A stretch of DNA of 32,472 nucleotides from Nitrospirota bacterium (lineage in GTDB: Bacteria; Nitrospirota; Thermodesulfovibrionia; Thermodesulfovibrionales; UBA6898), in contig JAJZPM010000045.1 of the NCBI GenBank assembly GCA_021811105.1, forward strand, positions 1 to 32,472, written 5' to 3'. The first letter of the stretch is position 1. Every line of letters begins with the position of its first letter. Below, in pieces: positions 13,511 through 32,090 of this stretch. A program made the translations under genes and the position numbers. The notes beneath the pieces were generated by a model. It did not search any database. It had not been told where the DNA came from and saw only the letters and a list, made by a program, of their open reading frames with translations.

Positions 13511-13586
<76 letters not shown>

Positions 13587-13600
13587 TATTTTTCAAGGAC

Positions 13601-14695
13601 TTATACGCTTGCAACTTTCTCTTCACCCGGCACTGTAGCCAAATTGTAGCCACTCATGCTTCGATCATAGATTTCCACCGCCTTGACCTTGTGACTGGGG
13701 GCGAGGTGTGCATACCTTAGAGTCATCTTAACATCGGCATGACCCAAAAGCTCTTTCACTGTTACCAGGTCTATACCGGCCATGACTAAGTGAGACGCGA
13801 AGGTATGGCGAAGGTCGTGAAAATGGAAGTCCTGAATTTTGGCCCTTCGCAGTGCCGTCGCAAAACTCTTCTTAACTTCCTGATACGGCTTGCCGCTTGC
13901 CGGATCGAAAAAAACATGCTGCACATCCAGCCTTCTCGGCAAACTCTGCAGGGTAGCTCTAAGGGTCGAGTTAATCGGGATTTCCCGTCTCTCACCGTTC
14001 TTTGTATGCGAGAGCAGAATGAAACCATGTTTGAGGTCAACATGAGCGTCCCACCTTAACCCCAAAATTTCCTGCCTTCTCATGCCTGTGTTAAGAGCGG
14101 TGATTACGATAGGTCTTAAATGAGGATCACAAGCTGCAATCAATTCCGAGCACTCTTCCTTGGAAAGATACCGGAGGCGTTTGTTGTTCTCCTTGAGCAT
14201 TTTTACTTTCGGGATATTGGCCCTGTCGATCATTTTCCAGTCAGCAGCCTTCGTAAACATGTGGGCAATAACAGCAATAAAGCGGTTGATGGTGGCCGGT
14301 TTGTTCGGAATATTATGAAGTTTACCTTCTACAATTTTTTGCTGTTTTCCCCGTTTCAGTTTTTCTGACTGCAATTTCTCAAGCTCACGCACGCCTATCA
14401 TCGACAAGCTGTAATCCCTAAAACGCTCTTTGAGTTGACTGATTATATAGATCTTGAATTTGGATCTATATCTGCCTTGCATCCAATTTTCATACTCTTC
14501 AGCCAATTCCAGAAAAGGGGGATCGTCTTTTGTCTCCTGTTCCTTGAACCATCTGCCCTCGATGATGTCTGTCTTAGCCTTGGAGTAAATGTTTTCTGCC
14601 AGTCTTTTATTGGCAGTTCCTGTTGACCGCTGTATGCGGCCTTCGCTTGTACGAATTCTGAACCAGTAGATCTTACCTCTCAGGTAAAGCCCCAT
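13601..14695 (-). CDS. int: Tyrosine recombinase (island integrase)
   Basis: This 364-residue integrase would catalyse site-specific insertion and excision of the island at the neighbouring tRNA-Ala. The N-terminal part (MGLYLRGKIYWFRI...) is an AP2/Arm-like DNA-binding region, followed by a SAM-like core-binding domain. The catalytic domain shows the first Arg in NTGMRRQEILGLRW, then HDLRHTFASH (His and second Arg), LLGHADVKMTLRYAHL (third His and nucleophilic Tyr). The ATG at 14695 is chosen because AAAGGAGG lies 8 nt upstream; an earlier in-frame start would overlap the excisionase gene. It follows that gene by 1 nt and appears complete. Confidence 0.93.
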   Translation of the reverse strand: MGLYLRGKIYWFRIRTSEGRIQRSTGTANKRLAENIYSKAKTDIIEGRWFKEQETKDDPPFLELAEEYENWMQGRYRSKFKIYIISQLKERFRDYSLSMIGVRELEKLQSEKLKRGKQQKIVEGKLHNIPNKPATINRFIAVIAHMFTKAADWKMIDRANIPKVKMLKENNKRLRYLSKEECSELIAACDPHLRPIVITALNTGMRRQEILGLRWDAHVDLKHGFILLSHTKNGERREIPINSTLRATLQSLPRRLDVQHVFFDPASGKPYQEVKKSFATALRRAKIQDFHFHDLRHTFASHLVMAGIDLVTVKELLGHADVKMTLRYAHLAPSHKVKAVEIYDRSMSGYNLATVPGEEKVASV

Positions 14696-14696
14696 T

Positions 14697-14927
14697 TTAT
14701 TTGCCTCCTTTCCTGGGGCTACTGGTAACGGTTTTGGCAAATGAATTATAACCCGATGTGGCGGACCTGTGGCAAGCCCCGATCCACCCTAACATTTCAT
14801 CCAGGTCAAACCTCAGCAAACCATTGACCTTGTAATGGGGAATTAGTCCCTCTTCTGCCCATTGGTAGACTGTTTTCGGGCTCGCGCCAATGATTTGTGC
14901 AACCTCCTTTGCAGTCATTAGCTTCAT
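14697..14927 (-). CDS. Excisionase-like helix-turn-helix protein (MerR/AlpA type)
   Basis: The 76-residue protein opens with MTAKEVAQIIGASPKTVYQWAEEGLIPHYKVNGLLRFDLDEMLGWI, the standard winged helix of the excisionase/HTH_17 family. The last ~25 residues are polar and basic. Directly upstream of and nearly touching the integrase gene, it most likely sets the direction of recombination by bending att DNA, or represses the operon. Its stop codon is 1 nt from the int start, so the two should be translated from one message. It lies 9 bp downstream of parB. Confidence 0.85.
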   Translation of the reverse strand: MKLMTAKEVAQIIGASPKTVYQWAEEGLIPHYKVNGLLRFDLDEMLGWIGACHRSATSGYNSFAKTVTSSPRKGGK

Positions 14928-14936
14928 ACCCTGTTA

Positions 14937-15866
14937 TTATCCGGCAGCTTCTCGTTCCGATTGTTCGATCCTCTCCAGAAAGCCCGCGAACTCTCTCTGA
15001 AGTCTCTCCCTGTCCCCGGCCTGGATCCTTGAGCCCTTTTCGTATCTCATCAGCAAGGAGATGTGACGTTCGGTCTCTCTGAGCGCGCTGTGAACGGGTT
15101 GGTGTTGGGCATCAAGGCTGGGCTTGCTGCCGGGTGGCCTGCGGAAGCTCTTCAGTGCGCGTTTTATCCCTTCCTCATTCACCGCTTCGACAAAGTCCCT
15201 GAGTTCCTCTTGCCCGAGGCGCCGGCCTATCTCCGCAAGGGCTTCTGCGTCCCGGAAATCAATCAGGTCGGCATTCCTTTGAAAAAGCGACAACAGCGTC
15301 CTGGATGATGTCATGACGCTCTCGATCCTGACGTATCTTTCTACACTCCGCCGCGACAGCCCTAAGGCCTCGGCCGTCGCTGATGTGTCGCCGATCTCAC
15401 GTTGCAGCGATCCTATGGACAGAGTCTTTTCTACAACATTGAGTTCCTCCCGCTGCATGTTCTCAATAAGGGTGAGGAGCTTCATCTCCCTATCGTCCAC
15501 TTCCCTTATCATGGCGGGGACCTCTGTCAACCCTGCCAGCTTTGCCGCTCTCAGTCTCCGCTCCCCGGCAACGACCTCATATTTGTAACCCGGAGAATGA
15601 CCGGCGGCTTTCCTCAAGGCGATCGGATGGAGCATGCCCCGTCCCTTCAGGGACTCGGAGAGGGTCCATATCTTTTCCTCGTCGAAGCGTTTCCTGGACT
15701 GAAACGGGTTCGGCGCTATGTCGTCAACCGGGATCTGCGCCACCTCCTGACTAACCCCGGCAGACAGGTCCTCCTCCTCGGGAACCTCTCCCTGAGCGCT
15801 CCCCAGAATTGTCTGAAGGGCTTCTTCCCCCCTCTTCGAAAATAGATCCCTGATTCCTTTTCCCAT
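14937..15866 (-). CDS. parB: ParB/Spo0J-family partition protein
   Basis: The 309-residue protein has an N-terminal ParB/sulfiredoxin domain (about residues 40-135). It shows the CTP-site motifs PNPFQSRKRFDEEKI (box I-like), GERRLRAAKLAGLTEVPA (the GERRxRA motif) and LIENMQREELNVVE (the ENxQR motif). A central HTH follows (about 145-175, ATAEALGLSRRSVERYVRI). The C-terminal part is helical and probably dimerises. No parA gene is adjacent, which is common for island-encoded ParB-like proteins that act as regulators or stabilisers. GGAGG sits 6 nt upstream of ATG 15866. It heads a parB-xis-int minus-strand group. Confidence 0.9.
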   Translation of the reverse strand: MGKGIRDLFSKRGEEALQTILGSAQGEVPEEEDLSAGVSQEVAQIPVDDIAPNPFQSRKRFDEEKIWTLSESLKGRGMLHPIALRKAAGHSPGYKYEVVAGERRLRAAKLAGLTEVPAMIREVDDREMKLLTLIENMQREELNVVEKTLSIGSLQREIGDTSATAEALGLSRRSVERYVRIESVMTSSRTLLSLFQRNADLIDFRDAEALAEIGRRLGQEELRDFVEAVNEEGIKRALKSFRRPPGSKPSLDAQHQPVHSALRETERHISLLMRYEKGSRIQAGDRERLQREFAGFLERIEQSEREAAG

Positions 15867-16262
15867 TGGAAACCTCCTTCGGGTTTTCAGTACCCTAAAG
15901 GGATATTAACGGCGAGGGGACTTCCTCTGAATCGACACGGTGTCGCTCCGCAAATCCACTATCGTTTGATTCGGGACCCCTCAGGCAGCCCCTCAGGAGA
16001 CCACTAAGGTGGGCACGAGCAGGAATCCTGTAAATTTAGTGTTATTTCCAAGTACTTATAGGTCTCAGACCAAGCCGAGCTCTATCCTTTTTTGGCCATC
16101 CCCTACCCGCGTTGAACCTTTCATCATCGAAGTACTGTCATTGCCTTTATTGCCACCTTCTTTGTCCTGCATTTCGCACAACCTCTCTTTGGTCTTCTCA
16201 GGTCTCACGCTCTTTGGTACTCTCTGTCCTGGCCCATTCAAGGCCTCTCGATAATATTAGGT
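15867..16262. other. Divergent intergenic region between parB and the replication-relaxation gene
   Basis: About 400 bp without a credible gene; an 81-codon plus-strand frame is rich in Pro/Ser/Leu and looks random. It should contain the divergent promoters for parB-xis-int and for the rightward genes. It holds the palindrome CGACACGGTGTCG (listed separately) and a short tandem of CCCCTCAGG (around 15978-16000). This would be a reasonable place for a centromere-like or replication site, but no iteron series is apparent. Confidence 0.4.
15933..15945. promoter_or_regulatory. Palindrome CGACAC-G-GTGTCG, candidate ParB/regulator site (copy 1)
   Basis: A perfect 6-1-6 inverted repeat lies 67 bp upstream of the parB start. 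The same arms recur at 17018-17030. It does not resemble the chromosomal parS consensus, so if ParB binds it the specificity is private to this island. Confidence 0.4.
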
Positions 16263-17036
16263 ATGGTGAATCTGACCCGCAGAGATATCGACCTCTTCAA
16301 GGTCCTTGCCCTTGGTGTCGCGAATTTTAAAATGATCCTTGGTCTCCTGAACCATGCTTTCAATTATGGTATGAGCGAAACTGCGCTCCTCAGGCGACTG
16401 TCGATTCTCCACCGTGCCGGCTACATAGCTACCCGCAGAGAACCCTATCGAAAACGGCACGGTCATTTTACGATCTATGCTTTGACAAAGTTGGCTGTGC
16501 AGGCCCTTGCGGAACTAAACTATCCCAATGAGAGTGTCCGCATGGATTTGCCGGCAACCTATTTCGTCAGGCATGAACTGAACGTTACTTCGGTCCTCCA
16601 CAGGATTCACCGGGAAAGCTCTCAAGGCTTTTACAGGTACAGGTTCCTTGACTCGTCCGTCTTGAAACAGTACCGCAAAAAAGAGTCACGGGACCCCATC
16701 CCCGACCTGCGAGTAAGCCTGTATTTCAAGAAGAACTCGACTATCGAGATGAACATCGAGGTTGATCTTGGCACGGTCTTGATTCCCAGGATGGCCCGGC
16801 GTATTGCAGATCAGGCCAACACGTCGGACTTCATACTGATTATGTGTAACAGTGATGCCCGGCTTCAGAGCATATATGAAGCCTGTTCAAGCTTTACCAA
16901 AGACAACGTATTGTTGGCACTGCTGCGCGATTTTCTGAAGGGTGGCTTCCGGCATACCGGTCTCCGGACAATACAGGATGAGACGGTGCGTCTGAAACTC
17001 GATGATGAAGAACCTTGCGACACTGTGTCGGAGTGA
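16263..17036 (+). CDS. Replication-relaxation family protein
   Basis: The 257-residue protein begins with a winged-helix-like segment. RRDIDLFKVLALGVANFKMI is followed by SETALLRRLSILHRAGYIATRREPYRKRHGHFTIYALT, the usual start of the Replic_Relax family of plasmids and conjugative elements. The central and C-terminal parts (VRHELNVTSVLHRIHR, PDLRVSLYF, EMNIEVDLGT) match the nuclease-like half seen in this family, with Asp and Glu residues on predicted strands. Its exact action is not established; a role in element replication or relaxation is inferred from family membership. The ATG at 16263 has only a weak ribosome site. A 93-bp gap separates it from the next gene. Confidence 0.7.
   Translation: MVNLTRRDIDLFKVLALGVANFKMILGLLNHAFNYGMSETALLRRLSILHRAGYIATRREPYRKRHGHFTIYALTKLAVQALAELNYPNESVRMDLPATYFVRHELNVTSVLHRIHRESSQGFYRYRFLDSSVLKQYRKKESRDPIPDLRVSLYFKKNSTIEMNIEVDLGTVLIPRMARRIADQANTSDFILIMCNSDARLQSIYEACSSFTKDNVLLALLRDFLKGGFRHTGLRTIQDETVRLKLDDEEPCDTVSE
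17018..17030. promoter_or_regulatory. Palindrome CGACAC-T-GTGTCG (copy 2)
   Basis: The same arms as at 15933-15945 occur within the last codons of the replication-relaxation gene, about 100 bp upstream of the next start codon. Exact 12-base arm identity at two sites in the same module makes coincidence unlikely. Confidence 0.4.
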
Positions 17037-17129
17037 GGTCAGAACACCATCCGGAGATCGGGTCCTTCCCTGGACCTAAAAGTAATATTTATTTGAGGCC
17101 ATGGCGGGAAACATTTACGGAGGTTCGGT

Positions 17130-18407
17130 GTGGATGACGCCTTTAGACTCCTGAGCATGAATGGATCAGTGATGGAGAGGGTGTCGGCTGAATGCATCTC
17201 AAGCTCAGCCGCTGCCCGCGAACTGGGGCCCCTGGTAGACGAACATGTGAAGCCGGTGACGTGGGTCAACAGCGCTTTACGCAGAGGAAGGATTCCTGTC
17301 AGACAGCATTTCAGGCATGTCGGAACAATGAAGTTTGAAAGACACCTGGCAGGTAAAATCTGTGAAGAAATTCGCTTAAGAAATAGCCTCGGCGAAGGTC
17401 CGGTACACAGAAAAACAAAGACTATGCTGTATCATGCCCTCACAGGGTGTATTCATCATAGCGTAAAGATTCCCTGGGTCTCGAGTAATAGAGTAGCCAC
17501 ATCGTTCCGACTCTCGGGCGATCTGTTGAGTGAAGTGGTGGAAGCACGAGTAGAAGAAGAAATAAAGACGCCTCTTGGAATTAACTTTAGAGCAGACATT
17601 GCGCTGTTTGGCAAGGTCATTAGAAAGAGGAACCTCTTGCTGGGGATAATAGAGCTGGAACACCATCACCGTTTTGACTATATGAAATGTCTGGTCTATA
17701 GACAACTCGGAGTCCCCGTCATCTCAGTTGATCTTTCCGGCTTAACAGAAGCTGAAATCACGGAAGACTGGACAATGCGGACCCTTGAAGGCATGTCAAT
17801 TACGCCCGGGGATCGGGACCGCAAGACACATATACTCCTGCCGTACTCCCTGTATCCTATATTTGCGGACATTCCGTATCCCATGAGACAAGACACGCAC
17901 GAATTCATCATTTTCGTGCGCGACGATGATTTCGAGCTCCTTTTGAGGCACCTCGATGACCTGAAGAGATGTCTTTCCCTTAACGACAAGAAGGTACTTG
18001 TCAGACCTTATAATCGGATGATGCGAGAGGATGAAGCGATGGAAAAGACTCTCGGCTCAGTCGGTGTTTTGGCGGGACCCAGCTGGAGAAATTATAACGA
18101 GAGGCGTTTCATCCGGGTCATCTGCGCGGTGCCGCGGGATAAAAGAGGCAGAAGCTATATTTTCCATGTCGTTATGGCTTCGCTTCTCAATGCTTATTAC
18201 GACGTTCTCATCGGCTACAGATTCAACAGGGAACTACAAGTCGATCGTTCCTCAGGACTGCCTGTTTGGTGTAAGAGGGAAGAGGGCACACTGACACCCG
18301 TGCACCCGGTTCATCTTGCGGAGCCTCTTAGACCGTTGCTAGGACGCATCGCCAGACTTTCATTGGATCAATTTCCGAAGAGAGACCGCCTTAAGTGTGC
18401 GACATGA
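17130..18407 (+). CDS. Unrecognised 425-aa protein with a nuclease-like core
   Basis: I do not recognise this family. Translation starts at GTG 17130 with GGAGG 5-6 nt upstream. Residues ~150-205 look like a restriction-endonuclease-type core: FRADIALF (Asp156), then LLGIIELEHHHRFDYMK (Glu175, Glu177), then QLGVPVISVDLSG. This layout recalls CoiA- or DUF559-like nucleases, but the usual ExK is ExE here, so catalysis is uncertain. The C-terminal ~200 residues are mixed alpha/beta with no cysteine motif or membrane segment. Sitting directly behind the replication-relaxation gene and in the same direction, it probably belongs to the mobility or maintenance module of the island. Confidence 0.6.
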   Translation: MDDAFRLLSMNGSVMERVSAECISSSAAARELGPLVDEHVKPVTWVNSALRRGRIPVRQHFRHVGTMKFERHLAGKICEEIRLRNSLGEGPVHRKTKTMLYHALTGCIHHSVKIPWVSSNRVATSFRLSGDLLSEVVEARVEEEIKTPLGINFRADIALFGKVIRKRNLLLGIIELEHHHRFDYMKCLVYRQLGVPVISVDLSGLTEAEITEDWTMRTLEGMSITPGDRDRKTHILLPYSLYPIFADIPYPMRQDTHEFIIFVRDDDFELLLRHLDDLKRCLSLNDKKVLVRPYNRMMREDEAMEKTLGSVGVLAGPSWRNYNERRFIRVICAVPRDKRGRSYIFHVVMASLLNAYYDVLIGYRFNRELQVDRSSGLPVWCKREEGTLTPVHPVHLAEPLRPLLGRIARLSLDQFPKRDRLKCAT

Positions 18408-19204: not shown

Positions 19205-19237
19205 AGCAAGCCTCGGCCAAAGCGCCCGGATTCAAAA
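19202..19237. repeat. Cassette-boundary repeat, copy A
   Basis: This copy carries TTCAGCAAGCCTCGGCCA and then AGCGCCCGGATTCAAAA. It overlaps the stop codon of the AbiEii-like gene (19232-19234). Related copies are at 21921-21961 and 22888-22920. Confidence 0.7.
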
Positions 19238-20659
19238 CTTTGTAGTCACATACATGCCGGTGCGGCCGGGGCAAGGATATCCTTGCTTATTCTTATGCTG
19301 GTTCAGGGATGAGTCCATTGCTTTATGCGTAAACTGTCTTCCGCAGACGATGCACCTATAAACATACTTAGGGCCATAGCCGGATGATGTGCTCCTTCTG
19401 CTTGTTGATTTGATCCGTTGAGGCCGTAGGCTGCCAATCCCCTCCGTTCGCATTGTTGTAAGTGGAGCAGAAAGCGGACCTACAGCGCTAAGCTCTACTG
19501 CATATTTAGGCGTAAATGGGATCTTTGTCACCTCGGCGCCTTGAATACGGTCGACTCTGTATGATCTATCTGCCCTGGTATCGTGCTTCACAGCATACAG
19601 AAGAAGATTGCCGTCGCGCGTGCGCCTCAGGGAATAAGGCTCGATGAGTCGTCTGCTCCCCTGGTAAGCCAAATTAACGCACAATCTATTTGCTGCTGCA
19701 TATCGTATTATCTCCATTGGCGCTGCAGTGTGCCATGCCGTTGCCATTACCGGCGGTTTCCATGTTGTATCGATTGCCTGCCCTCCTGCTGATATTGAAG
19801 GAGGGGCTTCTTTTTCAACTGCTCGGTACAGCCATTCAAAAACCTCCGGCAGCTCCTGCCAGAACTGATCAAAAGGCGGCAAAACAGGCACCTGATGGCC
19901 CAGCATGTTTTCCCACTCAGATACCAGTTCCGCCCGCTCCGGTTTGCTCTCAAGCATCTCCATGGTAGGAACCGATAAGCCTTTGAATGCACACTTTGCT
20001 TCGAGGATGCTCAGAATTTTCTCGCGGCCCTGCCTCGTGCTGTCATGCCTGTAGAGATGGATCACGTCATAGAGGTCTCTCGGCCTTAGCTGTTCGCCCA
20101 ACGCCCTGATCTTTTCTGCAAAGACCTCTTCAAAGCAATAGCAGGGAACATGAATCCCTCCTGCAGGGGTGTCGGAGTATGGATGGGATACTTCGCGACT
20201 GACAGGATCGGACACTAATACCTCATCGTCTGTGAGGTCCAGTTTGATGCGGGGAAGATCGCCGCCCGGCCGCAGCGGTCCCCTATAAGCAATCCTTCCC
20301 TGAACGGATATCTTGCCTCTTGGATTTGTGTAAACATCAAACCTGATCAGATCGCGCGGAATCTCGATACCTGATGCATCATAAACCCAATCAGCTATTT
20401 CCCTGAACGCATTAATCAGAAAGTCTTGATCCTGATGCTTAGCATCTGTCAGGGTAAAGTCCAGGTCTTCAGAGAATCGGTAGGTTTCAAAATAACATTT
20501 CTTGAGGCATGTACCTCCTTTGAATGCCCAGCTTGCGCTGAGATCTTCGTGCTGCGAAATTCCTGCCAGCAGCCAGCCAAGCATATAGTCTTTCTCGATG
20601 ACATTTATAGCTAGGCCGAACTCCCTTGAGAAATCCATTATCTCCTGTCGGTCTATCAC
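19232..20659 (-). CDS. AbiEii-like nucleotidyltransferase toxin fused to a WYL-like domain and zinc-knuckle tail
   Basis: Residues 1-285 form the AbiEii/type IV toxin nucleotidyltransferase. The GGT at 48-50, SEDLDF with the paired Asp at 65 and 67, and RDLYDV at 194-199 are its hallmarks. AbiEii toxins transfer nucleotides to RNA or nucleotide acceptors and block growth, usually on phage infection. Unusually, residues ~313-390 (EIIRYAAANRLCVNLAY, RLIEPYSLRR, SYRVDRIQGAEV) read as a WYL-type ligand-sensing domain. The tail has CIVC (436-439), His454 and Cys463, a possible zinc knuckle. Start is GTG 20659, 1 nt after the antitoxin stop. At 475 residues it is well above the usual ~300. Confidence 0.8.
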   Translation of the reverse strand: MIDRQEIMDFSREFGLAINVIEKDYMLGWLLAGISQHEDLSASWAFKGGTCLKKCYFETYRFSEDLDFTLTDAKHQDQDFLINAFREIADWVYDASGIEIPRDLIRFDVYTNPRGKISVQGRIAYRGPLRPGGDLPRIKLDLTDDEVLVSDPVSREVSHPYSDTPAGGIHVPCYCFEEVFAEKIRALGEQLRPRDLYDVIHLYRHDSTRQGREKILSILEAKCAFKGLSVPTMEMLESKPERAELVSEWENMLGHQVPVLPPFDQFWQELPEVFEWLYRAVEKEAPPSISAGGQAIDTTWKPPVMATAWHTAAPMEIIRYAAANRLCVNLAYQGSRRLIEPYSLRRTRDGNLLLYAVKHDTRADRSYRVDRIQGAEVTKIPFTPKYAVELSAVGPLSAPLTTMRTEGIGSLRPQRIKSTSRRSTSSGYGPKYVYRCIVCGRQFTHKAMDSSLNQHKNKQGYPCPGRTGMYVTTKF

Positions 20660-20660
20660 A

Positions 20661-21467
20661 TCAATTCTCCTTTATCCAGCTTTGCGGAATCCAAAGCCTC
20701 CAGCGCGTTACCAATCTGTCCGCAGGAAGCGAAGGATCAAGCCTCACATTTCCTTTTGTAAGACTGGCTCTGCAGTCGTTTATGGCTGCCTCCTGGTCCG
20801 GCGCATAACGTTCCAGCAGGAACCCAAGACGCTTAAACACAGCGCCATTGTCCAGCCGTCTGGCATAATCTATCAGGAGTTGAATATTCTTGTTCTCTGA
20901 CTTCAGGTAGCTCAGGAATATGTCCGCTGTTGGCCGTATCCCTCCGCCAAGCTTCGGATCAGCCAGCATGTCGAGGATCGTGCGGGTTGGATCAGAGACC
21001 GACACCTTAACCTGTCCTTTCCACACCGGCTTTGTCCCAAAGAGCGCCTTCTCCGATATTGTGCGCAGCATGAAACTTGTACCCTTGATCACAGGGGCAC
21101 GGTCTCTTGGCTTCTGAGTTGTCAGGACAACAACAGTACGGAAAATCTGCTCTGTAAGGTCCCAATATTCGGCAGCGCCCCATCCTCCGATATAGCAGGG
21201 CGAGAATAACCGGTCGGCGATAATCCAGGGATCTTCAAGGGGAACATCAGACGTGCGGGACTCAAGCGGCACTCGTACATACAAGCCCCGGCGCACGCGG
21301 GAAATCCATCCCTTCTTTGCCCAGCGGGAAAGCATCTTCGCTGCGTCGGGCGAAGAGACGTTCAGGATGTCGGCAGCATCCTTGACCGAGATCGTGCCTT
21401 TCGTCTCCCGGAAGATTTCCGAGAGCCTTTCCCTGTCTTTCTTTCCTATGCCCGCCAAGGTTTTCAT
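20661..21467 (-). CDS. AbiEi-family winged-helix antitoxin
   Basis: The 268-residue protein begins with a winged helix (residues ~10-70: TISVKDAADILNVSSPDAAKMLSRWAKKGWISRVRRGLYV), the antitoxin_4-like domain of AbiEi. The C-terminal half (PWIIADRLFSPCYIGGWGAAEYWDLTEQ, KVSVSDPTRTILDML) is the second antitoxin domain. In characterised AbiE systems AbiEi neutralises AbiEii without stable binding and represses its own promoter cooperatively at inverted repeats. Here a palindrome (21496-21510) lies just upstream of the start. The toxin gene starts 1 nt after this gene ends, so the two are translationally coupled. It appears intact. Confidence 0.85.
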   Translation of the reverse strand: MKTLAGIGKKDRERLSEIFRETKGTISVKDAADILNVSSPDAAKMLSRWAKKGWISRVRRGLYVRVPLESRTSDVPLEDPWIIADRLFSPCYIGGWGAAEYWDLTEQIFRTVVVLTTQKPRDRAPVIKGTSFMLRTISEKALFGTKPVWKGQVKVSVSDPTRTILDMLADPKLGGGIRPTADIFLSYLKSENKNIQLLIDYARRLDNGAVFKRLGFLLERYAPDQEAAINDCRASLTKGNVRLDPSLPADRLVTRWRLWIPQSWIKEN

Positions 21468-22922: not shown

Positions 22923-23771
22923 TCACTTTCTGAACTTCATGTAGCCGTCGAGCTCGCCATAATCGTCAGGGTCGTCATCGTAGACTTCTTCATCGTCTTC
23001 CTCGTGGTCGACGAACAAGAATGTCAGGACATGGTTATACGTACTCGATCCGATGGACATTTCCATGACCTTCGATGAATTTCTGAACTTTGAATCACCA
23101 GTCCAGGCATTCGAAGGGACTTCATTAAATGAATCCGGGATAGCAGTCCCTTTGAAGAAATCGTATGCAAACGAATCTTTATGAACAGGGCTCCCAGGCC
23201 TTACGTCGAGGAAATACTTGAACTCTTCTCCAATATGGAACCAGTTTATTCTTGAATTCTCCGAGTATACCATTGCATATTCAGGCTTAAAGGTAATACA
23301 TCTCATGCCCGTCGCTGTCAACGATGTACCGAATTCTGCGCAGAGGGCATCAAGCAGGCTCTTGCTCAGGTCCTTGTACTGGACACGTTTTTTGAAATGC
23401 TCTTCAGGCATCAACAGTTCAGATGCAAACCAGTTTGCTTCAAACTCCCTATTGTCAGCCTTCCCAAAACTGGAAATGTCTTTATCAGAACACTGAAACG
23501 ACGTCCGCTCAGGAGTGATATGTCCCGGAATTGTAAAGTGCCCAAGCTCGTGAGCGACTGTGAATTTCTTTCTACTTGGTTCCCGGAGAGCCTTCTTAAC
23601 TGAAATCAACGCCTCTCCGTCAACTACCAAGAGCATTCCCGTGTAACCCTCGGCATCGTCCTCGCTGACCTCAATGCCCTTCTGAATTGCTATCTCTACC
23701 GGGTCAACAGGAATCTTGGTGTAATTTATCTCTTTGCGGAGTTGTGCTGCATATGAGGCTGAACCTTTCAT
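22923..23771 (-). CDS. ImmA/IrrE-family metallopeptidase
   Basis: The 282-residue protein has the zinc-peptidase motif HELGH (His74, Glu75, His78) and downstream the family segment REFEANWFASELLMP, whose Glu completes the zinc site. In ICEBs1 and Deinococcus relatives such peptidases cleave an XRE-type repressor after a stress or DNA-damage signal. The partner XRE gene is directly upstream and overlaps by 4 nt, so the pair is translationally coupled. The C-terminus after residue ~255 is a very acidic tail (HEEDDEEVYDDDPDD), which may aid protein contacts. The catalytic residues are present, so it should be active. The likely substrate is the neighbouring repressor. Confidence 0.88.
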   Translation of the reverse strand: MKGSASYAAQLRKEINYTKIPVDPVEIAIQKGIEVSEDDAEGYTGMLLVVDGEALISVKKALREPSRKKFTVAHELGHFTIPGHITPERTSFQCSDKDISSFGKADNREFEANWFASELLMPEEHFKKRVQYKDLSKSLLDALCAEFGTSLTATGMRCITFKPEYAMVYSENSRINWFHIGEEFKYFLDVRPGSPVHKDSFAYDFFKGTAIPDSFNEVPSNAWTGDSKFRNSSKVMEMSIGSSTYNHVLTFLFVDHEEDDEEVYDDDPDDYGELDGYMKFRK

Positions 23772-24121
23772 TTCTTGGGCGCCTTTTTGCTGGCCTTGTC
23801 TTTTAGATACGCTATATGGTCCATTATGGTGGCCCGGTCTTTCAGGGTAAACCCTTTAAAATCTCTGAATGCCATAGAAACTTCCTTGTCAATGAGAATG
23901 TCTTTTTCCTTGGAAGCTCCAAGAAGGTAGTCAGTTGTCACACCGAGGGCCTTCGCGAGTTTAAGCAGGGTCTCTGTTGAAGGTACTTTCTCTCCCTTTT
24001 CATACTGGTTTACAGCAGATGGCGAAACATCAATAAGCTCGGCAAGGCTTTTCTGGCTCAGGCCGGCAGCATCCCGGCGCTCTTTTATACGTTGACCGAT
24101 TAGCTTTCCTTCGATCTCCAC
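23768..24121 (-). CDS. XRE-family repressor (ImmR-like)
   Basis: This 117-residue protein has an HTH_3 domain near its N-terminus (IGQRIKERRDAAGLSQKSLAELIDVSPSAVNQYEKGEKVPSTETLLKLAKALGVTTDYLLG), then a short helical tail with lysines. GTG at 24121 is preferred because AAAGGAGG lies 4-5 nt upstream; the open frame continues to 24229, but that part overlaps the operator. It is the probable repressor of both itself and the divergent ubiquitin-like operon, since a perfect inverted repeat overlaps the opposing promoter. The overlapping ImmA/IrrE gene probably encodes its inactivating protease. This follows a well known switch design, but the wiring here is inferred. Confidence 0.88.
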   Translation of the reverse strand: MEIEGKLIGQRIKERRDAAGLSQKSLAELIDVSPSAVNQYEKGEKVPSTETLLKLAKALGVTTDYLLGASKEKDILIDKEVSMAFRDFKGFTLKDRATIMDHIAYLKDKASKKAPKK

Positions 24122-24210
24122 AGGTCCTCCTTTCTTAATGGCCTTTTTCTTATTATATTGCTCAGCCTGTTTCAGGTCAATTAAAAAATAACCTGTAGTT
24201 AACTTTTCTC

Positions 24211-24239
24211 TTGACATTAACTTAACCATAGGTTAAGAT
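24211..24239 (+). promoter_or_regulatory. Promoter of the ubiquitin-like operon with embedded operator
   Basis: TTGACA (24211-24216) and TAAGAT (24234-24239) are spaced by exactly 17 bp. The perfect inverted repeat CTTAACC-ATA-GGTTAAG (24221-24237) fills the spacer and reaches into the -10 box. Further TTAACC or GTTAA half-sites lie near 24190-24202 and 24243-24250. A bound repressor would block polymerase. AGGAGG at 24261-24266 serves the first gene. Confidence 0.75.
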
Positions 24240-24274
24240 GTTATTAACCTAATGCAGCAAAGGAGGATTCGAAG

Positions 24275-24550
24275 ATGTCAGACGAAAAGAAGGAACACAA
24301 CGAGAAGAAGCCCGAGGAGCATCCTGTCTTCCACTACACAGTGGACGACGAGCCGCAAACGACAAGTGAGCACGTCCTTACACCCAAAGACATTCTGGAG
24401 AAAGCCGACTTGAACCCTGCCACATACTATCTCGTCCAGATCAGGGGCAACGAACAGGTGCCCTACAAGGACAAATACGATGAGCAGATTCACATGCACC
24501 AGCATATGACCTTCATTTCTGTATTCATCGGCGATACCCCGGTCTCGTGA
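24275..24550 (+). CDS. Single-domain ubiquitin-like protein (Multi_ubiq type)
   Basis: The 91-residue product has a charged N-terminal tail (residues 1-17) and then one beta-grasp domain of the bacterial multiubiquitin type: VFHYTVDDEPQTTSEHVLT, PKDILEKADLNPATYYLVQI, then IHMHQHMTFISVFIG. It is probably the modifier or signal protein of the operon. Many relatives have several tandem domains; this one has a single copy. The C-terminus ends GDTPVS, so there is no diglycine, and no further residues are available to be trimmed to one. AGGAGG lies 8 nt upstream of the ATG. The stop codon overlaps the start of the next gene (TGATG). Confidence 0.78.
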   Translation: MSDEKKEHNEKKPEEHPVFHYTVDDEPQTTSEHVLTPKDILEKADLNPATYYLVQIRGNEQVPYKDKYDEQIHMHQHMTFISVFIGDTPVS

Positions 24551-24909
24551 TGGCAAAGGCAGATTTCATCAGTCAACTGACGGAGATTGGGTACACAGTC
24601 GAAGAGCTTGGAGACGACAAAATTGCCTTTCCTTATGAAATACCGGCAGGGCGCTTTAAAGGTCAAACGATAAAGCTCGGCTTTAACGCACCTGCCGATT
24701 TCCCTGTGTCGTCACCTTCAGGCCCGCACCTGACACCTCATTTGCTTCCGATGAACGCAGGAGCTCCGGCACATCCCGCACGAGTGGCCGATAGCAATTT
24801 TGGTCCCGAATGGCAATACTGGAGCAGGCCCTTTCTCAAATGGGCGGAAACAAACAAGACAGCTAAAGATTATATGCGGTACATCCGCCATCTCTTCGAG
24901 ACGCAATGA
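24550..24909 (+). CDS. E2-fold (UBC-like) protein, Prok-E2_E type, lacking cysteine
   Basis: The 119-residue protein resembles the prokaryotic E2 group found beside multiubiquitin and JAB-E1 genes. It has an N-terminal helix, a strand region (KIAFPYEIPAGRFKGQTIKLGF), the segment FPVSSPSGPHLTPHLLP, a histidine pair region (APAHPARVADSNF), then GPEWQYWSRPFLKWAET and the final helix KDYMRYIRHLF. In classical E2s a catalytic Cys follows the HPN-like motif. Here the complete protein contains no cysteine, so it cannot form a ubiquitin thioester. It may act as a scaffold, like eukaryotic UEV proteins, or use another chemistry. The ATG overlaps the Ubl stop by 1 nt; its stop overlaps the next ATG by 4 nt. 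Confidence 0.72.
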   Translation: MAKADFISQLTEIGYTVEELGDDKIAFPYEIPAGRFKGQTIKLGFNAPADFPVSSPSGPHLTPHLLPMNAGAPAHPARVADSNFGPEWQYWSRPFLKWAETNKTAKDYMRYIRHLFETQ

Positions 24910-26423
24910 AATACAGCGTAGCCCTTACAGAAGATATCCACAAGGCCGCCTATGAGCATCTTATCCGTTTAGATCGGCAAGAGGACCTCTGCTTTGCCCT
25001 GTGGTTTCCAAGCCAGGGGCATACCCGGAAGACAGCCTTGATCTGGAAGCTCATACTTCCCGGCAGTGGCGACCGCAAAGTCCATGGCAATGCGAGCTTC
25101 ACCGGCCGGTATTTTGAACGCGCTATAGGTGAGGCCGTGAAAGCCGGCGGTGGTCTGGCTTTAATGCACAGTCACCCCGGCCCTGGGTGGCAGGGCATGA
25201 GTTCAGATGATATCAGCGCCGAAAGAAATCATGCCGCGGCAACGAAGGGGGCAACCGGCTTACCGATTGTCGGCCTGACAATAGGGACGGATGGCGCATG
25301 GAGTGCCCGGTTCTGGGAAAAAACCAAGCCGAGGACATACGAGCGCTTCTGGTGTGAAAGTGTAAGGGTTGTCGGCGACGCTCTGAATATCACATTCATG
25401 GATGAGCTCATGCCTGTGCCAAAGTTCAGGAAGAACTTGGATCGGACTATATCGGCTTGGGGTCATAAGAAACAGGCGGTCCTTTCCCGCCTGAAAATAG
25501 GGATAATCGGCTTAGGAAGCGTAGGAAGCATTATATCCGAAGCGCTTGCACGCATGGGAGTGTCCCATGTAAAACTGATGGATTTTGACACTATCGAGTA
25601 TGTGAATCTCGACAGAACCCTGCATGCCTATGAAGATGACTCGACAACGGGACGGGCAAAAGTAGCAGCCGCGGCTAACGCTTTCCGAAAGAGCGCCACG
25701 TCCGAAAAGGTCACGGTGGAACTACTTGAATGGAGCGTCACCGAAGAGCAAGGCTTTCGGGATGCCCTCGACTGCGATATCTTATTCAGCTGCGTTGATA
25801 GGCCATGGCCTCGCGCGGCTTTGAACTTGATCGCATATGCTCACTTAGTCCCTGTTGTTGATGGCGGCATAGCTATCAAAATCAAGTCTAACGGTACGAT
25901 GAGAAGTGCTGACTGGAAATCGCATATTGTCGGACCGGGCAGGAAATGTCTGGAGTGCCTTGGTCAATATGACTCCGGTCTAGTCTCAGCAGACCGTGAG
26001 GGATATTTCGACGATCCCACGTACATACAGAATCTTCCCATGGACCACTCTATAAAGAGAAATGAGAATGTCTTTGCATTCAGCCTAAGCACAGCTTCTT
26101 TCCATGTTCTGCAAATGCTTTCCATGATCGTCGCTCCCTCAGGATTGGCGAATGTAGGGGCTCAGAATTACCACTTTGTTACAGGCGCCCTCGATGTCGA
26201 TCGCGACAAGTGTAAGGAATCCTGTCTCTATCCTTCCTTTACCGCCAAAGGCGACAGCACAGGGATAGTTGTGACCGGAATACATGCCAAGGCAGAAGAA
26301 GCCAGGGCTCTCAGATTAAAGTCGGGTACAGCTTCTCAAACATGGAGAGATAGAATTGTTGTACTTTATCATGCAATGATGGGCACGGTAAGGCGAGCGT
26401 TTTTGAAAATCTTGAAAACTTGA
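24906..26423 (+). CDS. JAB deubiquitinase-E1 (ThiF-like) fusion protein
   Basis: Residues 1-160 are a JAB/JAMM metalloprotease domain with Glu26 (QEDLCFALW), His88, His90 (HSHPGPGWQGMS), Ser99 and Asp102. Residues ~190-450 are an E1/ThiF adenylating domain: GLGSVGS (202-208), Asp226 in LMDFDTIEYVNLDR, Asn234 to Arg237, Lys252 and Asp298 in CVDRPWPR. Zinc ligands are probably Cys348/Cys351 (CLEC) and Cys436/Cys440 (CKESC). The protein could adenylate the Ubl C-terminus and also remove it from targets. A catalytic Cys of E1 type is not obvious; Cys296 is a candidate by position only. It is the last gene of the coupled operon and ends 55 bp before a convergent gene. Confidence 0.88.
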   Translation: MKYSVALTEDIHKAAYEHLIRLDRQEDLCFALWFPSQGHTRKTALIWKLILPGSGDRKVHGNASFTGRYFERAIGEAVKAGGGLALMHSHPGPGWQGMSSDDISAERNHAAATKGATGLPIVGLTIGTDGAWSARFWEKTKPRTYERFWCESVRVVGDALNITFMDELMPVPKFRKNLDRTISAWGHKKQAVLSRLKIGIIGLGSVGSIISEALARMGVSHVKLMDFDTIEYVNLDRTLHAYEDDSTTGRAKVAAAANAFRKSATSEKVTVELLEWSVTEEQGFRDALDCDILFSCVDRPWPRAALNLIAYAHLVPVVDGGIAIKIKSNGTMRSADWKSHIVGPGRKCLECLGQYDSGLVSADREGYFDDPTYIQNLPMDHSIKRNENVFAFSLSTASFHVLQMLSMIVAPSGLANVGAQNYHFVTGALDVDRDKCKESCLYPSFTAKGDSTGIVVTGIHAKAEEARALRLKSGTASQTWRDRIVVLYHAMMGTVRRAFLKILKT

Positions 26424-26478: not shown

Positions 26479-27258
26479 TTATTTCGTTGGCGGGTAGAAT
26501 ACGCCTAAGATCATAAAATTCTGTCTGAACCTCTTCATATTTCCCACAAAGAAGTAGGTATCATTCTTCATGGAACAGAGATTATCCAGCCAGCGCTCTT
26601 TGATCTTCTCGAGCAGCACCGCCTCATCCTTATAGGTGAACCTCCACGTTCTATACGCCTGTCCGATCTCCCAGTCAATAATGGGCAGGTCATGACCGAG
26701 ACAGTCGTGTCTCCCCTGACAGAAGAACTGATATCTAAAATCAAAGGGTATCTCCTCAATAGCCTGTTTGCTCTTGTTGTAAAAGCTCAGTTGAGCGTAA
26801 CAGACATCTCTCTCCGTCTTATTTTGAAGCTTCACTTTCTTATGCGTGAAGGCGATTCTATGAGGTTTGAACATGCCGAGAGACAAACCGGACTTCTCGC
26901 TGCCTTTCAGGAGGTCGCAGTATGAAGGGGCAAGCGTAGGAAGAACGATCTTCTTTCTCTTGTTCCATCCGTCTTTCGTTCTTGTATCGTACCACTCCAG
27001 CACTTTAATGCTATCGGCGTCTACCTTGAAACTCTCAGACCGCGTATCATCCGGGGCTTTGTGTGCCCTAATTTCGATGATGCTATATTTCCTGAATTTC
27101 TTTTCATCCTCCAGGTCCCTATATTGAATGGGATAAAGGCGTATCCATTTTTCTGTGGTAAGATCAATGCCGGCGACACAAACAGTCTCTCCATACTTCT
27201 TGCTTGGGTTGGGATAGGCTTTGACGGTGACGAGAACTTTTTTAAGTTCCCATAGCAT
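26479..27258 (-). CDS. Predicted dual OB-fold protein, DUF488 partner
   Basis: The 259-residue protein opens with KKVLVTVKAYPNPSKKYGETVCVAGID, then WIRLYPIQYRDLEDEKKFRKY. From memory, this is the start of a family annotated as dual OB-domain proteins, often next to DUF488 genes in defence or DNA-processing islands. Here too the DUF488 gene is directly upstream. Its TGA overlaps this ATG (27258-27256), so the two are coupled. The C-terminal half (PFDFRYQFFCQGRHDCLGHDLPIIDWEIGQAYR) contains two close cysteines and histidines that could bind metal. OB folds suggest nucleic-acid binding. An upstream in-frame start at 27330 would overlap DUF488 more deeply and is rejected. Confidence 0.65.
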   Translation of the reverse strand: MLWELKKVLVTVKAYPNPSKKYGETVCVAGIDLTTEKWIRLYPIQYRDLEDEKKFRKYSIIEIRAHKAPDDTRSESFKVDADSIKVLEWYDTRTKDGWNKRKKIVLPTLAPSYCDLLKGSEKSGLSLGMFKPHRIAFTHKKVKLQNKTERDVCYAQLSFYNKSKQAIEEIPFDFRYQFFCQGRHDCLGHDLPIIDWEIGQAYRTWRFTYKDEAVLLEKIKERWLDNLCSMKNDTYFFVGNMKRFRQNFMILGVFYPPTK

Positions 27259-27704
27259 CAAATATGTGTGATTACCAGGCCGTTGCCGTCGATCGCTTTG
27301 ACCTTCTTGGCAACGATAAGGCGATGACATTTAAGTGGATCGCGCTCCATGCACATGAAGCAACTTACATCCTGTGCTATGATCTCCCTGTACATCTCCT
27401 CCATGTCGCCGTTAAGGGTTTCGAGATATGCCCTGTATCCATCGAAAAAGGAATCGTAGTCCTTATCCCTATGGAGCTTCTCTCTCAATTCTTTTGGGCT
27501 GCCGAGCTTGCCGACGTGAACATAGTTTATCCCTGCGGACCGAAGGTGCTCGCTGATGCGTGTCTTTGAGAAGTCACGTTTTCTACTATAGGGTATCTCA
27601 CGGACATCGATGAGTGTGCTAATTCCGTGCTTTTTCAGTCTGCCCAAAAACTCATCTATTGTCCGCTCTTCATAGCCGATAGTAAATACCGTTATAGGCT
27701 TCAC
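27258..27704 (-). CDS. DUF488 family protein
   Basis: The 148-residue protein shows the DUF488 pattern: VFTIGYEERTIDEFLGRLKKHGISTLIDVREIPYSRK near the start and FMCMERDPLKCHR near the end. The CMERDPLKCHR segment is the conserved core of the family and probably holds its reactive cysteine and ligands. The biochemical role is not established. GTG at 27704 is chosen because CGGAGG lies 6 nt upstream and it puts the protein start at the usual place; an ATG at 27746 would add 14 residues without a ribosome site. It is coupled to the dual OB gene and starts ~50 bp after a truncated ATPase tail. Confidence 0.8.
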   Translation of the reverse strand: MKPITVFTIGYEERTIDEFLGRLKKHGISTLIDVREIPYSRKRDFSKTRISEHLRSAGINYVHVGKLGSPKELREKLHRDKDYDSFFDGYRAYLETLNGDMEEMYREIIAQDVSCFMCMERDPLKCHRLIVAKKVKAIDGNGLVITHI

Positions 27705-27753
27705 TGAATGCCTCCGCACCTTCGGTGTTTTGCCTAAGTATAGCATATTTGCT

Positions 27754-29044: not shown

Positions 29045-29916
29045 CTAACGTTCCCGCCCGCCCTCGTCAATTCCCTTTCTCAGTTTCTCAATCTGCCGCA
29101 ATATTTCATCGAACTTGTCATTATAGCTGAGCGAGCCTCTGATCATATCTGTGACCAATCTGTATTGAGACTGCTCCTCTGTTTCCGCCCCCAAAATTGC
29201 TTTGATAGCACTCAACGTCTCGGGATCAGCGATCTTCGCCATGTCCCGGCCAAGCAGTCTGATGCCGGCATGTCTGGTATTAAAATCCTCTTCCTTAAGC
29301 AGGTCTTGCTCTTTATCGTATAGTCTCTCAAAGTTTCCGGCCTCCTCGTATTTTTGCATGATCAGCAAGAGGTCCTCCGCGTCTTTCTTCCTTTCAGGAT
29401 ATTTTTCCCTCCACGAGATGATCTTCATGAGCGCCAGCCCCGGCAGGGTCGGCAATTTAATATCGAGTTCAGGGTCTGTGCTCAGTCTGACAGTGATGGA
29501 GTATTCATAAGCCTCTTTAAAGCCGACCATGCTCATGAACATCTCATGTTCCGGAGGCCAGGCGATCCTCCGGTTCTCACCGGCAATAGGTCCGAATGGT
29601 ACGATATCGATAAGAACGGAATCGAAACGAAGGCGTTGAGCTTCTCTTTCGTCAGGGATAAACTTGCCCGTGGCCTTTAATGTTTCTCTCAGCTTGCTGA
29701 ACTGTTCCCAACTGGCAACCTCTACTCAGAGGTCAATATCCGTGGTCATCCTGGGTGGCTCTATTCCGTAGCAGTATTTCAGTATAAAGTCTCTTGCCGA
29801 GGCGCCGACAATAAAGAAGGAAATCCCGAGAGAATCGGCGGATATCTTGACAGCCGAAAGGCATCGACTGTCTGCCGGTCAATCTTCCCTGACAAGTCGA
29901 ACAATATGTTGCTCAT
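29045..29916 (-). pseudogene. Broken AbiEii-like nucleotidyltransferase toxin gene
   Basis: The original gene can be rebuilt from two frames. It starts at ATG 29916 (MSNILFDLSGKIDRQTVDAF), shifts frame near 29850 by loss of one base, and continues with AVKISADSLGISFFIVGASARDF and RMTTDIDL. It then meets an in-frame TGA (29726-29728) directly after the catalytic DID motif. The rest (VEVASWEQF, then DSVLIDIVPFG, then LDIKLPTLPGLALMKIISWREKY.RKKDAEDLLLI) is intact to 29045. Length and motifs fit the nucleotidyl transferase AbiEii/type IV toxin family. The start overlaps the upstream antitoxin gene by 38 bp. Two lesions make a functional product unlikely; an internal ATG at 29542 would give only the C-terminal domain. 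Confidence 0.85.
29726..29728 (-). other. Premature TGA stop in the toxin gene
   Basis: The codon follows the sequence for TTDIDL, immediately after the catalytic Asp pair, and precedes VEVASWEQF in the same frame. A single base change would restore a sense codon. Confidence 0.85.
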
Positions 29917-30928
29917 AGACCATCTTTGCTGTTTCGAGATTGCGCTGATTCCCTGTTGCCAGAAGGTCGGCATACACAAGGACTGGGTGGACCAGGTCGT
30001 CATGCTGTTGATCCTCTGCAGGCTTCCAGAAGCGTTCGAGGATTTCAACGTCTCCCGTATTGTCCATTTTCAGTCTGTTGTCGAGAAGCAACTGATTGAG
30101 ATGCTGAGCATCCGCGTAGATCGTGATCAGCTGGGGTTTCAGATATTGAGTCAGTCTTGCGGCCGCTATCTCGCCGCCCCACTGGGCCTTTTGCGGGTCG
30201 AGCCTCTTCTGCTGCCACCAATCATGTTGACCTTTGTAGCGGCCCAGGAGCTGCTTTAGTCTCAACTGCTCAGGATATGCTGTCACCCAGCGTTGCAAGA
30301 GAGTTTCTTTCTGCGCCAGTTTCAGACCTCTCTTACCCATGTCAATAAGAAAGCCCAGTTCCTTTAGTTCCTTCATGGTCCAGTCAACGGTCCCAAGAGC
30401 AAGACCCGTAGCGGCCGCGATCTCCCGGTAGGTTTTGTTTTCAAAACCGGGATTGCATAAAAAGTAATAAATCATTTTAAGCCCGGCAGCCTTGAAGGCC
30501 CTCTTAACAGGGATCTGTCCGACAGTTTCCGGCAACCTGTTGCCCTTTACAAAAATATAGACAGGCGGCTGGTTAATAAAGGCATTGCCGGCAGTATCAA
30601 TGAATTCAATGCCGTCCTCACGTAACTGTTCGGCCATCTGGGGGTTCACGTATTTTGCGATGAGCAGCAGTGGGTACTGTAGTCCCTCCCTGTGCAGAAG
30701 CAGCAAGAGCCTTTGGGCTTTTGTGACCGTGGTCTTTATTCCGGCATAGTACTTCAACTCCTTGCCGTGTATCACCATCCGTATCATCCGGTCGGGCTGA
30801 AACCCAGCCGTATAGGCAGGCCCCAGCTCTAACGTCTCGATCTCCGTCTGCGCCGGGGCGGTCTTCTTGAATGCCTCTACAGCATGCCGGAAGATTTCCT
30901 CTTCGATATCAATCTTGGGTCTGTCCAT
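29879..30928 (-). CDS. AbiEi-family antitoxin/regulator (type IV TA)
   Basis: The 349-residue protein has the layout of large AbiEi antitoxins. The central segment TKAQRLLLLLHREGLQYPLLLIAKYVNPQMAEQLREDGIEFIDTAGNAFIN is characteristic, and residues ~165-240 form a winged helix (YREIAAATGLALGTVDWTMKELKELGFL). It should repress its own promoter and neutralise the downstream toxin. ATG 30928 (MDRPKIDIEEEI) is preferred over 30994, since the intervening bases hold a perfect palindrome that fits an operator. The gene is intact although its toxin partner is broken, so it may be a solitary regulator or protect against other AbiEii toxins. It overlaps the toxin pseudogene by 38 bp. Confidence 0.8.
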   Translation of the reverse strand: MDRPKIDIEEEIFRHAVEAFKKTAPAQTEIETLELGPAYTAGFQPDRMIRMVIHGKELKYYAGIKTTVTKAQRLLLLLHREGLQYPLLLIAKYVNPQMAEQLREDGIEFIDTAGNAFINQPPVYIFVKGNRLPETVGQIPVKRAFKAAGLKMIYYFLCNPGFENKTYREIAAATGLALGTVDWTMKELKELGFLIDMGKRGLKLAQKETLLQRWVTAYPEQLRLKQLLGRYKGQHDWWQQKRLDPQKAQWGGEIAAARLTQYLKPQLITIYADAQHLNQLLLDNRLKMDNTGDVEILERFWKPAEDQQHDDLVHPVLVYADLLATGNQRNLETAKMVYEQHIVRLVRED

Positions 30929-30948
30929 AGCTTTGTTCACTTTATTAT

Positions 30949-30971
30949 TATGTTCATTTAGTATGAACATA
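30949..30971. promoter_or_regulatory. Operator-like palindrome upstream of the second abiEi
   Basis: TATGTTCAT-TTAGT-ATGAACATA is a perfect 9-5-9 inverted repeat beginning 21 bp upstream of the ATG. Single TGTTCA/TGAAC half-sites flank it on both sides. This suits cooperative binding by AbiEi as known from other AbiE systems. Confidence 0.7.
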
Positions 30972-31445
30972 CCTGAAATATGAACTAAAGTCAAGTTAGG
31001 AAAATGTTACAACGTAGTAGTGCGCGGAGTTTAAAGGATATTCTGGTCTTGGAAACATGATCTTAGGTCGTCGGCTTTGTGGCAGACAAAATGCCATGTT
31101 CATAATTACCTGGTGTTCATTATTGCTGAACATCAGCTAATTATGAAGTCGATTCGGGGTACTGAAAAGTATCGCAGGTTTCAATTTCTTTGCGGCAGTT
31201 CCTTGTGAATAGGTTTACGTTCTTTAGGTAGACGGTCAAAGTAAGCTTTCCCGGACAGTTGCAAAGTAGAGCACTGATTTCTCAGAAGTCCACAGGAACA
31301 AGGATGATAAAAATATAACAGAGTACTACAATCGGAAATCGGCAAGACGTTTCAAAAATCAATAGGCAACTCTGCCCCGATAAAGATAAAGTTCACCGCA
31401 CGGAATAAGTTAACAAAGTCAACGGGCGACAAATTTTATCAATAG
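30972..31445. other. Intergenic region with a long inverted repeat
   Basis: About 470 bp without a supported gene. It contains an imperfect 21-bp inverted repeat (31099-31147, listed separately). The part from 31148 to 31445 is A/T-richer than its neighbours, and I see no motif in it beyond scattered stops in all frames. Confidence 0.5.
31099..31147. repeat. 21-bp imperfect inverted repeat with TGTTCA half-sites
   Basis: The left arm starts TTCATAATTACC and ends GTGTTCA; the right arm is its complement with two mismatches, around a 7-nt loop (TTATTGC). The inner ends TGTTCA and TGAACA are the same half-sites as in the abiEi operator 130 bp away. Confidence 0.7.
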
Positions 31446-32090
31446 TCACTCTTTAGGGGTAGAACTGTCTGCATCTCTACCGACTTGGATTATCGTTATT
31501 CCAGAACTTCCCGCAATGTCAATTTTTTGGGTCATGTTGGATTTCTCAGTCCGCCTCGATCTTGCCTTTTGAACTGGCTTTTCTTTTTCATCTTTAGACT
31601 TTGTTTTTTGATTTCCTCGCTGTTCCTTAATAAACTCGTGGTTAAGTTTTCTGATCTCTTCTTGGAGGTCGTGAGGAAAATGCTCTACACGTATCCCGCT
31701 ATCGGTGAGAATCCAGACGCCGTTGCCTCGTATGTCGGGGTTAGGGTCAAGGATGCCGACAACGACCTTGCCAATTTTTCTTTTTACAATCCTTTTTGCA
31801 CATGGAATCTTTGGGTGATTTCGAGTGGTGCATGGTTCGAGAGTCGTGTACAAAGTTGCGCCCGTCAAGTCGACTCCGACCAGTTTTCTCTCAAGCGTGG
31901 TGTATTCAGCATGTTCACCTTCCGATATCTCTCCCCTGCATGCACTGGCAAGGAGATTGCCATTTTTAACGACAACCGCCCCGACATAAAGAGGCGTTTT
32001 TCCGCCGTCTAACTTGGACTTCTTCGCCTCTGCAATAGCGAGTTTCATGAAGTTAAGGTTTTGTGCCGCATCGTCTTTTGATATTTTCAT
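31446..32090 (-). CDS. Cytidine/deoxycytidylate deaminase-like protein with unusual tail
   Basis: The 214-residue protein has a zinc-dependent deaminase fold at residues ~10-155. H60-A-E62 (GEHAEYTTLE) and PCTTRNHPKIPC (Cys87 and Cys97) form the metal and proton-shuttle site. The segment VVVGILDPNPDIRGNGVWILTDSGI resembles RibD-type deaminases rather than CDA. The reductase domain of RibD and any other rib gene are absent, so a riboflavin role is unlikely; nucleotide or nucleic-acid deamination is more plausible. Residues 160-190 are a lysine-rich linker, and the last ~25 residues (KIDIAGSSGITIIQVGRD) look like a short separate module. Its start overlaps the stop of the small upstream gene by 4 nt. 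Confidence 0.82.
   Translation of the reverse strand: MKISKDDAAQNLNFMKLAIAEAKKSKLDGGKTPLYVGAVVVKNGNLLASACRGEISEGEHAEYTTLERKLVGVDLTGATLYTTLEPCTTRNHPKIPCAKRIVKRKIGKVVVGILDPNPDIRGNGVWILTDSGIRVEHFPHDLQEEIRKLNHEFIKEQRGNQKTKSKDEKEKPVQKARSRRTEKSNMTQKIDIAGSSGITIIQVGRDADSSTPKE

Follow-up and report, generated by a model that had tools for sequence, protein, structure and literature searches.

Two descriptions in the literature are close to the locus studied here. In the type 6e operons defined by Iyer et al. (2006; PMC1779556) a polyUbl gene is followed by a stand-alone RWD-like E2 lacking cysteine and then by JAB-E1, and the E2 fold was predicted to be catalytically inactive. Bub operons, of which 544 have been described, carry CapW or CapH together with CapP in 219 of the 544, and phage protection by them has not been demonstrated (PMC13373217). 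The present locus shares the composition of the solved Citrobacter BubA-BubB-BubCD system (9ea4, 9ea5, 9ea8, 9eae, 9eav), namely a ubiquitin-like protein (Ubl), an E2-like protein lacking a cysteine at the site and a JAB-E1 fusion.

A predicted Bub operon in a Nitrospirota genome

The window is the whole stretch of DNA analysed, 32,472 nucleotides of contig JAJZPM010000045.1 from a Nitrospirota bacterium (GCA_021811105.1). Its E2-like gene occupies the middle of an operon running Ubl, E2-like, JAB-E1 at 24275-26423 (Table 1), whose three genes overlap at their start and stop codons (TGATG between Ubl and E2, in the junction GTGATGG, and ATGA between E2 and JAB-E1). Identical gene order was found at loci L002, L033, L034 and L019 and on actinobacterial plasmids. 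Ubl, E2-like, E1 and JAB components, by which a Bub operon is recognized, are all present within this one operon.

Citrobacter BubCD (9ea4) was the best solved relative of the JAB-E1 fusion, with an E value of 3e-20 for the single sequence and 5e-37 for the clade profile, the latter over positions 6-407 across JAB and E1. For the E2-like protein, hhalign matched the clade to a BubB-type profile at 95.9% (E 5.6e-9; 96.5% for the five nearest sequences), and this BubB-type profile retrieved Citrobacter BubB from the PDB at 4e-40. By profile-profile comparison, the only route through which we claim this homology, the E2-like protein is remotely homologous to the BubB family. Because the JAB-E1 fusion resembles BubCD and the E2-like protein resembles BubB, we assign the operon on homology to the Bub operons, corresponding to type 6e of Iyer et al. 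(2006).

Table 1. Coordinates of the operon, its regulatory pair and selected residues in the window
Feature	Position	Strand	Description
Ubl (BubA-like)	24275..24550	+	91 aa, single ubiquitin-like domain, C-terminus ...FIGDTPVS
E2-like protein (BubB-like)	24550..24909	+	119 aa + stop, no Cys; Ser92 codon 24823-24825
GPEWQYWSRPF block	24802..24834	+	residues 85-95 of the E2-like protein; contains W88, S92, R93
JAB-E1 fusion (BubCD-like, P0003)	24906..26423	+	505 aa; ThiF 95 bits
JAB-E1 JAMM residues			H88, H90, S99, D102
JAB-E1 nucleotide site			GLGSVG, N234-L-D-R237, K252, D298
JAB-E1 Cys pair			C348/C351
CapH-like HTH regulator	23768..24121	-	PADLOC capH 2.9e-19; GTG start at 24121 (probable), AAGGAGGACCT upstream
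CapP-like M78 metallopeptidase	22923..23771	-	PADLOC capP 4.4e-56; Peptidase_M78 1e-14; 4-nt overlap with capH
Promoter-like TTGACA-N17-TAAGAT	24211..24251	+	overlapped by TTAACC/GGTTAA inverted repeats, 24221-24237 and 24229-24251

Absence of cysteine and an invariant serine in the E2-like family

The initial annotation of this DNA had read the E2-like frame as cysteine-free and had concluded that its product cannot pass a Ubl as a Cys thioester, and both statements hold, since translation of 24550-24909 (+) gave 119 residues with 0 Cys. A cysteine-free protein of 119 aa is by itself not improbable: taking the base rate from the 25 other proteins of the window, in which Cys makes up 0.96% of residues, the probability of finding none in 119 aa comes to about 0.32; among stretches of 119 aa drawn from those proteins, 38% have no Cys. 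What counts is the pattern across the family. When 31 E2-like sequences, BubB among them, were aligned, no Cys column was conserved, the maximum being five members in any column, and this protein lacks the catalytic Cys that follows an HPN-type motif in a canonical E2 (UBC). Because no Cys column exceeds 5/31, we regard absence of Cys as a family property, and on this alignment the missing residue belongs to the whole BubB-like family and not to one defective gene. The annotation had overlooked that a Cys-less state of the type 6e E2-like domain was already published in 2006 (Iyer et al.; PMC1779556) and that there is a solved structure for Citrobacter BubB, a homologue with no Cys at the site.

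The sole invariant column of the 31-sequence alignment was Ser92. After addition of six haloarchaeal sequences and one from Abditibacteriota it remained invariant (38/38), as did no other residue, in a set spanning several bacterial phyla and haloarchaea. Ser92 sits within the GPEWQYWSRPF block, which the annotation had singled out as possibly marking a different active surface and which is indeed the conserved surface: R93 is kept in 30 of the 38 sequences and W88 in 26 of the smaller set of 31, and hhalign pairs the block with WSRH of BubB, the motif that contains the invariant Ser on the BubB branch. In the window's clade P, D, E or Q takes the place of the His of WSRH, so the window's site is not identical to that of BubB, and His60 is invariant in 12/12 clade members.

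Ser92 thus offers, on its conservation, a candidate non-Cys nucleophile, which goes beyond the three options named in the annotation (direct transfer by the JAB-E1 protein, a UEV-like scaffold, or non-covalent signalling). In the reading that we consider fairly probable, the protein is the Bub E2-like component of a cycle in which the E1 domain would adenylate the Ubl C-terminus, the Ubl would be handed to Ser92 as an oxyester rather than a Cys thioester, and from Ser92 it would be passed on to a target; the JAB domain fused to the E1 would process and deconjugate the Ubl, and CapH and CapP, encoded divergently, would keep the operon repressed until the cell meets a stress, for instance DNA damage. 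We infer the role of the serine from conservation, an invariant Ser92 may also be structural, and E2 activity of the clade is a prediction. Biochemical work on Bub by Gong (2025) and by Ye et al. (2026) is said to argue for such oxyester chemistry. Ser92 is the testable candidate residue for cysteine-free Ubl transfer, and the natural loss or substitution of the motif His in the clade could reveal which residues the chemistry needs.

The main rival to a Ser-based E2 is a scaffold role, in which the E2-like protein would be an inert UEV/RWD-like partner of the Ubl or the target and JAB-E1 would move the adenylated Ubl straight to its target; this unites the annotation's first two options with the 2006 prediction. 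Iyer et al. (2006; PMC1779556) saw in the domain an RWD-like E2 fold without catalytic activity, which agrees with it, as do the lack of Cys in the protein and of a conserved Cys in the family and the presence of UEV (VPS37A) and the FANCL RWD region among the E2s of the structural list described below. Yet invariance of Ser92 across bacteria and archaea is more than an inert scaffold needs, and the solved complexes are of BubCD with BubB, in keeping with hand-over from E1 to E2, so that we hold this rival to be unlikely, though still to be taken seriously.

The E1 and Ubl of the clade

The JAB and adenylation motifs of the JAB-E1 protein are intact and shared. JAMM H88, H90, S99 and D102, the GxGSVG loop, N234-x-D236-R237, K252 and D298 are conserved in 12/12 clade E1s. 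Conserved Cys in the clade E1 alignment is limited to C348/C351, C440 and a CVD motif, a pattern that fits a pathway lacking a Cys relay. We discarded the idea that a Ser/Thr of the DP[ST]Y segment serves as catalytic residue of the E1, because actinobacterial members have A, E or G there.

Single-sequence scans were nearly empty, with one locus recovered from genome contigs and, for E2 or Ubl as query, no relative in viral contigs, phages or plasmids; relatives were therefore collected via the E1 gene. An E1 tree, from which Citrobacter BubCD itself was left out, placed the window in a separate clade (support 100/99) together with Planctomycetota, genomes of the same phylum and actinobacterial plasmids, neighbouring the haloarchaeal clade and apart from BubCD-type E1s. 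Pfam cut-offs miss the Ubl and E2 of the window's clade, which thereby escapes standard profiles, and on its actinobacterial plasmids the E2-like genes carry either the label hypothetical protein or no annotation; judged by these searches, the window copy comes from a divergent and mostly unannotated branch. The haloarchaeal plasmids L015 and L046-L050 carry operons of Ubl, Cys-poor E2-like protein with the invariant Ser, and E1, followed in L015 and L046 by a DEAD/DEAH helicase gene. Their Ubls have varied short tails, often behind a Gly.

The clade Ubls align end to end and are stand-alone in near relatives. All ten that were aligned (window, L002, L033, L034, L019 and L008-L012) end in V-A or V-S, compared with the terminal Gly of the solved BubA piece; in some a Gly 3-5 residues before the end would allow trimming, others lack a Gly near the end, and the window Ubl, ending FIGDTPVS, could be trimmed by JAB to Gly86. 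A PDB search with the Ubl alone gave no match, the Ubl profile matched multi-ubiquitin/BubA entries weakly, and Pfam Multi_ubiq scored 17.9 bits on an actinobacterial Ubl relative (cut-off 24.5).

These tails bear on two further readings. The clade may represent an uncharacterised Bub subtype, combining a Ubl activated at its strictly conserved C-terminal Val-Ala/Ser, in place of Gly-Gly, with a Ser-based E2 that lacks the BubB His and perhaps uses His60 as base, a proposal that we put forward as doubtful. A non-covalent pathway, in which the E2-like protein merely binds the Ubl and signals, would suit Ubls that end V-A/V-S instead of Gly, some of them without Gly near the end, but adenylation and JAMM residues are kept in every member and would be needless in a purely non-covalent system, which makes this reading very improbable.

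Fold of the E2-like protein

The AlphaFold2 model of the E2-like protein, built from two sequences, had a pLDDT of 58.6 and a pTM of 0.53, with residues 51-99 poorly defined. With this weak model as query, Foldseek against the PDB gave no match with E < 0.001, and structural re-alignment by VIA-align produced a list made up almost entirely of E2, UEV and RWD domains, among them UBE2H (Z 5.3), Citrobacter BubB (Z 4.5 over 95 residues), the UEV domain of VPS37A and the RWD region of FANCL, the Z values being modest. A PDB search with the sequence alone gave nothing meaningful. Pfam Prok-E2_E (PF14462) scored 24.2 bits, under the 25-bit gathering cut-off, and gave 17.7 bits or no match on the nearest relatives. 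In an alignment with three eukaryotic E2s, whose sequences were approximate, the segment holding Ser92 fell in a gap and was not placeable on the E2 active site, and the local profile match to these approximate sequences was 12%.

An E2 fold is supported, mainly by BubB homology, and not proven. The fold modelling proposed in the annotation gave an E2-like list, from a model too weak at 51-99 to place Ser92 at the E2 active site. A protein without an E2 fold would agree with the weak model, the lack of a Foldseek match, the narrowly missed Prok-E2_E cut-off and the low match to eukaryotic E2s, yet the profile match between the clade and the BubB family and the dominance of E2-fold proteins in the structural list stand against it, and we consider it scarcely credible.

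His-Pro and scattered cysteines among relatives

His-Pro occurs at residues 75-76, as the annotation had placed it, but in the 31-sequence alignment only the window and its three nearest relatives L002, L033 and L034 have it, followed by Ala in the window, Cys in L002 and Gly and Asn in L033 and L034. Cys therefore stands behind His-Pro in one of the four sequences having it, and the proposal that His75-Pro76 marks an active surface finds no backing. The annotation had named Cys at this place in most relatives as an outcome that would refute it; the alignment shows the reverse, with at most 5 of 31 sequences in any column, and so favours the annotation by its own criterion. The earlier interpretation as a whole survives in part: its E2-like assignment, its exclusion of a thioester on Cys and its choice of the GPEWQYWSRPF block stand, and His75-Pro76 as a marker lacks support.

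Relatives with Cys near the motif are scattered (HPC in L002, 4021-4383; DC or EC ahead of PGW in L008 and L011-L014), and the best-populated Cys column, the five of 31, consists of actinobacterial plasmid homologues with Cys just ahead of the conserved Trp. The least tenable reading, which we reject, takes the window's gene for a degenerate exception within a Cys-using E2 family: the Planctomycetota L002 with Cys right behind His-Pro and the 5/7 actinobacterial plasmid homologues with Cys shortly ahead of Trp would suit it, but such a Cys is missing from the window, L019, L033, L034, L009 and L010 and from the entire BubB side including Citrobacter BubB, most relatives carrying none at any one column, and the window operon is intact with overlapping genes.

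The CapH-CapP pair and the surrounding island

Both capH and capP adjoin the Ubl-E2-E1 operon and are divergent from it, in agreement with the published link of CapW or CapH+CapP to Bub operons. The capH match begins at residue 42 of a longer ORF listed from 24229, which is thus probably over-extended, GTG at 24121 being the likelier start. The 153-bp intergenic region between capH and Ubl (24122-24274) has a sigma-70-like promoter under inverted repeats, and these TTAACC/GGTTAA repeats are a plausible candidate CapH operator for the operon.

The operon is located on a plasmid-like island integrated at tRNA-Ala. The left end of the island, at 13511-18407, is formed by tRNA-Ala and, following it, genes for a tyrosine integrase, ParB and a replication-relaxation protein. 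Also present are an AbiEi/AbiEii toxin-antitoxin pair at 19232-21467, whose AbiEii protein has a WYL domain as well, a second, separate AbiEi-type protein at 29879-30994, and a candidate defence pair at 26479-27746 consisting of a PDC-M19B-like protein (weak dual OB domain match) and a DUF488 protein (PDC-M19A). A cytidine-deaminase-like protein similar to the MafB19 and AID/APOBEC deaminase families lies at 31446-32090.

Comparison with known systems

Eukaryotic UEV/RWD domains resemble the window protein in lacking a catalytic Cys and, probably, in their E2-like fold, but no Ubl and E1 of their own are encoded beside them, and we know of no invariant Ser motif in them. Bil (BilABCD) likewise places Ubl, E1, E2 and JAB protease within one operon, whereas the catalytic Cys of BilB lies within a CEHH motif (PMC11354881) and BilD and BilC are separate proteins, in contrast to the fused JAB and E1 of the window. 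With type 6e and Prok-E2_E the window has in common the gene order and a Cys-less RWD-like E2; unlike type 6e, its Ubl is single and not polyUbl, and the Zn-finger partner gene of that type was not identified adjoining the operon. Compared with Citrobacter Bub, the window Ubl is one domain on its own gene and ends GDTPVS, whereas BubA 155-229, the part of the Citrobacter Ubl that has been solved, ends ...VNNG; the His of WSRH in BubB is Pro in the window, and the window E1 has the C348/C351 pair, unlike several BubCD-type E1s. In common with Bub operons the window has the CapH-CapP association, and like Citrobacter Bub it has the invariant Ser in a W-x-x-x-S-R block.
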